Shown: piece by piece, positions 1 to 1,141 of the stretch
How the letters are laid out: every line of letters starts with the position of its first letter
How positions within the stretch are numbered: position 1 is the stretch's first letter
From: Clostridiaceae bacterium
GTDB taxonomy: Bacteria > Bacillota > Clostridia > DSM-8532
Direction of reading: 5' to 3'
DNA length: 37,168 bases
Assembly (NCBI GenBank): GCA_012730095.1
Contig: JAAYBO010000146.1
Coordinates: 1 to 37,168 of the forward strand
Made by a program: the position numbers and the translations under genes
The notes under the pieces: model-generated
What the model was told of the DNA's origin: nothing
The model's database searches: none
Seen by the model: the letters and a program-made list of their open reading frames with translations, nothing else

Positions 1-1141
1 GCTGGCGCATGTTTGTATCCATTGCGCCCGCAAGTTTCTGTACAGTTTGGACTGTTGAGGATACCTCGCTTACAATCTGTCCGACATCGGACACAAGCTG
101 CCGGTTGTATGAGGTCATTTCATCGGCCGCTTCCCGTATGTTGTTAGAGAAGCCTTCAATACTGCGATAGTTTTCAACAACAATATCGGAGGTTCTCGTT
201 AAGGCTTCGGTTACTTTAATGAAATTGACGTCCATTCTTTCGATATTGTTCCGCATGTTCAGGTTAAATTCATTCAAATCCCTCATATTTGACGCAAAAT
301 TGGCAAGTGAATTGTCAAACTTTTCAACAGTTGCGTCAAGCGTCTGGCTTGATACATTAACATCCATAACCACATTGGTAAGCTTTTCTCCAAAGCTTTC
401 AACCGTATCCTTAAGAGTAGTCTGGATTTTGTCACCAAACTCCATAAATGTTTCTCTTAAAATGTTGTTCATCATTGTATATTCGGTTTCTTTATCCTGC
501 GCAACCACAAGGGAGACTGTATTATCCAGATACTCTTCAATATGAACCATGAGGTTTTCTCGTACCTCTTCAGCGTTTACAACAGTAAGAAGGATTGTGA
601 GGATTATAGAACAGCCAATGCCGACCAAGCTTGTTACAAAGGCCACCGACATGCCTTGAAGCGATGAAACGAGGCTTCTGAGTAAATCCTGAATACCCTC
701 GTTTTCAACAATATCAGTTATATCCATATTTATAAAAATACCAGCTATCTGGCTCACGGCAACCGTTAAGCCTACAAAGGTACCAAAAAGGCCTAACGTA
801 ATCAAAAGGGTATTGCTGTTTTTTATAAACCGCTCCCACAAAGCCGTGCCCCTAAGCCTTAAATTGAAGCTCTTTTCAATTATAGCCTGTGTGTTTACTT
901 CACTGTAGCTGCCTGCTGCGGTATTTTTATAGTCTTCGATAATTTTGTTAAGAATATCCGAGTGAAATGCTCCCTCTTTTCTGCGGCGCCAGTCGAGTAA
1001 ATCGTCAAGGATTACGGTATACTTTTTTCTGATTATCAAATTGGCAACAAATGATATAATAAAAACGATAAAAGTGATTGTTATTATGTACATGCCAAGA
1101 CCGCGTACCTGCTGATAAATGTTTACTAAAGACTCAACCAA
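1..1141 (-). CDS. MotA/TolQ/ExbB proton-channel family protein with long coiled-coil C-terminal tail, ZorA-like (3' end truncated by window edge)
   Basis: Manual reverse-strand translation from TTG at 1141 is open to position 1 (~380 codons). N-terminal TM (GLGMYIITITFIVFIISFVANLII), then NTLLITLGLFGTFVGLTVAVSQIAGIF and LVSSLQGMSVAFVTSLVGIGCSIILTILLTVV, typical of MotA/ExbB/ZorA channels, followed by a long heptad-rich tail. Not in the ORF track because no stop lies inside the window. Confidence 0.75.
   Translation of the reverse strand, partial: MVESLVNIYQQVRGLGMYIITITFIVFIISFVANLIIRKKYTVILDDLLDWRRRKEGAFHSDILNKIIEDYKNTAAGSYSEVNTQAIIEKSFNLRLRGTALWERFIKNSNTLLITLGLFGTFVGLTVAVSQIAGIFINMDITDIVENEGIQDLLRSLVSSLQGMSVAFVTSLVGIGCSIILTILLTVVNAEEVRENLMVHIEEYLDNTVSLVVAQDKETEYTMMNNILRETFMEFGDKIQTTLKDTVESFGEKLTNVVMDVNVSSQTLDATVEKFDNSLANFASNMRDLNEFNLNMRNNIERMDVNFIKVTEALTRTSDIVVENYRSIEGFSNNIREAADEMTSYNRQLVSDVGQIVSEVSSTVQTVQKLAGAMDTNMRQ

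Follow-up and report, generated by a model that had tools for sequence, protein, structure and literature searches.

The window (the whole stretch of 37,168 nucleotides analysed here, which a search of its own assembly identifies as contig C87:1-37168) opens inside a gene, and its edge cuts the first member of a three-gene chromosomal cassette that we call A-B-C. The interpretation that we favour, to which we give a probability of about two in three, is that A-B-C, a chromosomal cassette inherited mostly vertically, encodes a motor of the 5:2 type that is driven by ions, is not flagellar, resembles the ZorAB motor of the Zorya systems, is equipped with a TPR adaptor and probably serves a housekeeping role.

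Organisation of the A-B-C cassette

Gene A lies on the reverse strand and is open to the window edge (Table 1). Its start is placed at a GTG codon at position 1150, a TTG at 1141 also being possible. It was from this TTG that the initial annotation had read a reverse-strand gene of ~380 codons; the gene is confirmed, with 383 open codons, and both of the motifs quoted for it, LGLFGTFVGL and GMSVAFVTSLVGIGCSIIL, are found in gene A. The reading frame is more than a chance one because protein A has orthologues with 92% identity over the full length in two genomes of the same genus, and with 71–76% identity in other genera of the family.

The left flank can be read through a second contig, C144. 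Bases 1-127 of the window are identical with the end of C144 and are found nowhere else in the assembly, from which we conclude that the window edge is an assembly break and that C144 is its left flank. Three relatives (L057, L061 and L062), in which the same gene order lies on one contig, support the join. The leftward extension that the initial annotation had called for thus completes gene A to 492 residues, the remaining 109 codons being on C144 (L003:19280-19735, sharing 127 bases with the window).

Protein A consists of a ZorA-like motor core followed by a coiled-coil tail. A ZorB/OmpA-like partner had been predicted for it, and B, immediately downstream, answers to this description, with one N-terminal transmembrane helix carrying the motif WPSFTDVMS and a C-terminal OmpA peptidoglycan-binding domain (Pfam, E 2.5e-9). 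The three genes run in the same direction with short gaps between them. The third, C, gives weak TPR matches; its predicted structure is a confident helical solenoid, TPR-like (pLDDT 89.6), for which the structural matches are generic TPR proteins. We found no known effector domain in C and no PADLOC match for it. On the 3' side of C, in the same orientation, is the gene for ribose-phosphate diphosphokinase (prs), beyond which come convergent genes for a dUTPase, a DUF948-like protein, ZapA and a sigma-70 factor. No match to ZorC, ZorD or ZorE models, and no PADLOC nuclease or helicase, was found in this left flank.

On the window side, the genes from position 1409 to about 11200, encoding a cupin, an Fe-type alcohol dehydrogenase and a sugar ABC transporter, separate the motor from an HcyBio gene that is close to it in related genera. 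These genes resemble insertions specific to the lineage; a genome of the same genus (G002) has the cupin and dehydrogenase only.

Table 1. Positions and supporting observations for the A-B-C cassette and its motor-loss variants (coordinates refer to the window unless a locus is named).
Feature	Position	Strand	Observation
Overlap with the end of contig C144 (C144:23608-23734)	1..127	.	127 bases identical, same assembly
Gene A, N-terminal 383 of 492 codons	2..1150	-	Open reading frame; rest on C144
A transmembrane helix 1, about residues 20-40	1031..1093	-	Hydrophobic stretch; AlphaFold helix
A transmembrane helix 2, about residues 112-137, GLFGTFVGLT (T124, T129)	740..817	-	T124 in 48/48 motor cores
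A transmembrane helix 3, about residues 162-192, GMSVAFVTSL (T173, S174)	575..667	-	T173 in 47/48 motor cores
A proximal tail, residues 216-285	296..505	-	Evolves most slowly of all cassette segments where C is present
A distal coiled-coil tail, residues 286-383, continuing to residue 492 on C144	2..295	-	Sequence
B, 320 aa	L003:18259-19221	-	Outside the window, directly downstream of A
C, 319 aa	L003:17283-18242	-	Outside the window, third gene, after B
Motor-loss variants	L119:8153-10717; L131:4507-7019; L132:8010-10456		B absent, tail and C kept

Relationship to known ion motors

Comparison with curated profiles places A and B nearest to ZorA and ZorB, at a distance. Matches of the whole A protein to ZorA models are weak (PADLOC, E 1.9e-12). 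In NCBIfam, A scores 38 and 33 bits against ZorA cut-offs of 190 and 100, and B scores 34 and 29 bits against a ZorB cut-off of 400, so that neither protein reaches the level of family membership. When the core of A (residues 1-215) was searched separately, to exclude bias from the coiled coil, all of its PADLOC matches were to ZorA (best 1.1e-12), and ZorA models were the sole motor models matched in NCBIfam (best 8.4e-7, 28 bits against a cut-off of 100), with no match there to MotA, TolQ or ExbB. The comparison with ZorA, MotA, ExbB and TolQ that the initial annotation had proposed therefore identifies A as an ion-motor subunit of the ZorA type.

Comparisons with solved structures gave matches of differing strength. 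The top matches of the A and B profiles among solved chains are the ZorA (E 9e-11) and ZorB (E 4e-21) of the type I complex 8vvn. A Foldseek search with A ranks the chains of 8vvn, ExbB, TolQ and E. coli ZorAB at the top, the closest matches of its membrane part being to ZorA, ExbB and TolQ chains, with none reaching E 0.001; the AlphaFold model of A (17 rows) is of low confidence (pLDDT 70, pTM 0.40) and was used as weak support. The Pfam MotA_ExbB family matches 13 of the 17 A members at E<0.01, the window protein falling below the Pfam cut-off. Judged from these searches, ZorA and ZorB are the closest named families of A and B, yet the scores are far below the curated cut-offs.

The residues on which a motor of this kind would depend are strongly conserved. 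In the 18 B sequences, W18, P19, F21, D23 and S26 of the transmembrane segment are invariant, as are D233, N241, S245, R248 and N294-R296 of the OmpA domain. The threonines at positions 124 and 173 of A, in helices 2 and 3, are close to universal among motor cores (Table 1), and the one exception at T173 occurs in a protein without a B partner. The Ser/Thr residues of the pore helices in A, and the single transmembrane helix with its aspartate in B, are both features that define the 5:2 ion-motor superfamily. In the solved ZorAB structure the aspartate at the corresponding position is packed against a ZorA-derived Ser/Thr ring and is required for defence, and ZorB anchors to peptidoglycan (PMC11890865).

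The A tail, C and the two modules

The presence of C is closely associated with the form of the A tail. In the class survey C was found in 28 genomes, all 28 of which have an A with a complete distal tail, and in none of the 24 other A-bearing genomes at the profile threshold. Conservation of the proximal tail (residues 221-280) is 0.71–0.80 in proteins that occur with C, compared with 0.22–0.32 in those without it, whereas that of the motor core is similar in both. Residues 216-285, the most slowly evolving segment (Table 1), are a candidate docking site for C. In mirror-tree comparisons of the parts of A with C everything correlates, with partial r values of 0.45 for the distal tail, 0.36 for the core and 0.16 for the proximal segment. 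On the core tree the state of C requires only 5 changes (3–5 in bootstraps, at least 2 being forced by starred branches), and shared ancestry thus explains part of the association between tail and C. In two of the 24 genomes scored as lacking C, both of family f24, a diverged, C-like TPR gene was seen by eye, below threshold, after A-B (L130:5708-6820 in genome G113 and L075:1-984 in G054).

In 21 of the loci read, A and B occur with no C beside them, so that the motor can exist without it. B is absent genome-wide (E ≤ 1e-25) from exactly three C-bearing genomes, G364, G115 and G245, which provide the motor-loss variants of Table 1. The A protein of G364 carries a partial deletion of the TM2 region and alanine in place of T173; in those of G115 and G245 one apparent transmembrane helix has taken the place of the entire motor core and leads into the tail. 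In all three, C lies directly after A, and the tail and C are intact. Where B has gone, the residues that depend on it decay, but the tail and C are retained. We conclude that the cassette is made up of two modules, the motor core with B and a separable tail with C, for which the motor-loss genomes are the best evidence.

Distribution and inheritance

The A profile matches 52 of 391 genomes of the class at E ≤ 1e-15 but, among 399 genomes from the phylum, only three in addition to the window's own at E ≤ 1e-10. In most genera of the window's family the cassette adjoins a cluster of genes for ZapA, a U32 peptidase, a dUTPase and an M20 peptidase, the U32 and M20 genes being absent from its neighbourhood in the window's own genus. 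Its neighbours in other families include YkuD and GH3 enzymes (f54), yunB and ligA (f22), and elsewhere GH38 and pyroglutamyl peptidase genes. Only A, B and C are common to the loci across families; the neighbours differ, and all are housekeeping genes. Because other families have other neighbours, the zapA, dUTPase and U32 genes were rejected as functional partners.

On the motor-core tree the members are mostly grouped by family, one f22 member being placed elsewhere. This largely taxonomic tree and the housekeeping context speak for vertical inheritance. No plasmid-borne A was found; plasmids gave seven partial, weak matches to B, which we read as matches to the OmpA domain only. Within f22, two members have a full-length tail and C, and the third (L128, genome G204), the one that groups elsewhere, is a short A-B without C.

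Neither A nor B was detectable in genomes G009, G014, G018, G023, G024, G025 and G027 of genus g2 in the same family, which indicates that the cassette is dispensable in that lineage. FliG was found in 36 of 44 carriers, those without detectable FliG being f14, several f40 members, G079 and G291, and Spo0A was undetected in several carriers. Neither flagella nor sporulation is therefore required, and links to both were rejected. In genome G291, two large genes of 1170 and 1133 aa, neither with a Pfam or PADLOC match, flank an A-B pair that is divergent (555 and 275 aa; L133:4050-14372); this locus is possibly a different ZorAB-based system.

Proposed function and alternatives

On the model of the homologous ZorAB and MotAB, five A subunits, each contributing three transmembrane helices to a core lined by Ser/Thr residues, would surround a dimer of B. 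D23 of B would act as the ion carrier, while the OmpA domain of B would clamp the complex to peptidoglycan. Passage of ions at D23 is predicted to rotate the A ring, together with the tail bundle in the cytoplasm, against a B held to the wall; from the tail, rotation or a change of state may then be handed to C as a cytoplasmic TPR adaptor, and C could in turn engage a further, unnamed partner. The task of the cassette is probably a housekeeping one, related to the envelope or the cell cycle, and not phage defence. More tentatively, A-B-C may represent an undescribed class in Clostridia, a wall-anchored 5:2 motor that delivers torque inwards through a long tail to a dedicated TPR adaptor, with the motor and tail-adaptor modules evolutionarily separated at least once.

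The initial annotation had raised a defence system as one of two options. A divergent type of Zorya, in which A and B would detect an entering phage at the wall, with C as the effector or its recruiter, is in keeping with ZorA and ZorB being the named families nearest to A and B, with the ZorA-like long tail and with the peptidoglycan anchor of B (PMC11890865). The likeness to ZorA-ZorB of Zorya types I–III extends to the GTF and AFxTS motifs in the transmembrane helices of the A core, to the cytoplasmic location of the tail, to the transmembrane aspartate and C-terminal OmpA domain of B, and to the A-B gene order. Against this, no ZorC/D, ZorE or ZorF/G effector was found adjacent to the cassette, in the left flank or by PADLOC scans of the neighbours, and no nuclease, helicase or other known effector adjoins it; in their place is C, which is TPR only and draws no PADLOC match. 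The A tail, of about 275 aa, is built differently in lineages that lack C. The locus is chromosomal and syntenic within the family, lying among housekeeping genes in a context common across genera, rather than sporadic, mobile or in defence islands; A is not on plasmids, many members are A-B alone, and the tail and C persist after loss of the motor. With profile scores so far below the curated ZorA and ZorB cut-offs, we regard a divergent Zorya as unlikely, each of the genomic tests applied to it pointing away from defence. The evidence fits the other possibility raised in that annotation, an unrecognised motor-driven complex.

The motor-loss genomes might instead mean that the function resides in A and C, with A as a coiled coil tethered to the membrane and C as its TPR partner, forming for example a scaffold, and that the ion motor is an accessory which several lineages have discarded. 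We consider this improbable, as the motor residues hardly vary in any member that has B, and A-B also occurs without C. Clostridia are expected to be monoderm, and an energiser of the TolQR/ExbBD type acting on an outer envelope layer is accordingly very improbable in such a host; A does have the 3-TM fold of these subunits, and Foldseek matches to ExbB and TolQ, but it matches no TolQ or ExbB model, B carries an OmpA peptidoglycan-binding domain and is not of the TolR/ExbD type, and no TolA- or TonB-like gene adjoins the cassette. Most carriers do have FliG, and A-B shares with the flagellar stator MotAB its superfamily, the ion-motor principle, the transmembrane aspartate and an OmpA-type peptidoglycan anchor. 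On another contig, however, the window's genome encodes a conventional flagellar MotA-MotB pair, which makes A-B a second motor; that this second pair also powers the flagellum is scarcely credible, since A has three transmembrane helices instead of four and matches no MotA model, and carriers without detectable FliG contradict it.

Implications

The role of ExbB/ZorA-family proteins in Gram-positive bacteria has been stated to be an open question (PMC9389320). The A-B-C cassette, for which we found no published description in the open-licence literature, provides a defined, mostly vertically inherited ZorAB-like system in Clostridia, and its natural motor-loss variants make that question testable. 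It also carries a caution, that matches to ZorA and ZorB profiles are not by themselves grounds for naming a defence system. If Zorya arose from such a housekeeping motor, or the reverse, this would help to explain the origin of the Zorya engine. A-B-C is probably a motor that Clostridia use routinely and that has gone undescribed.
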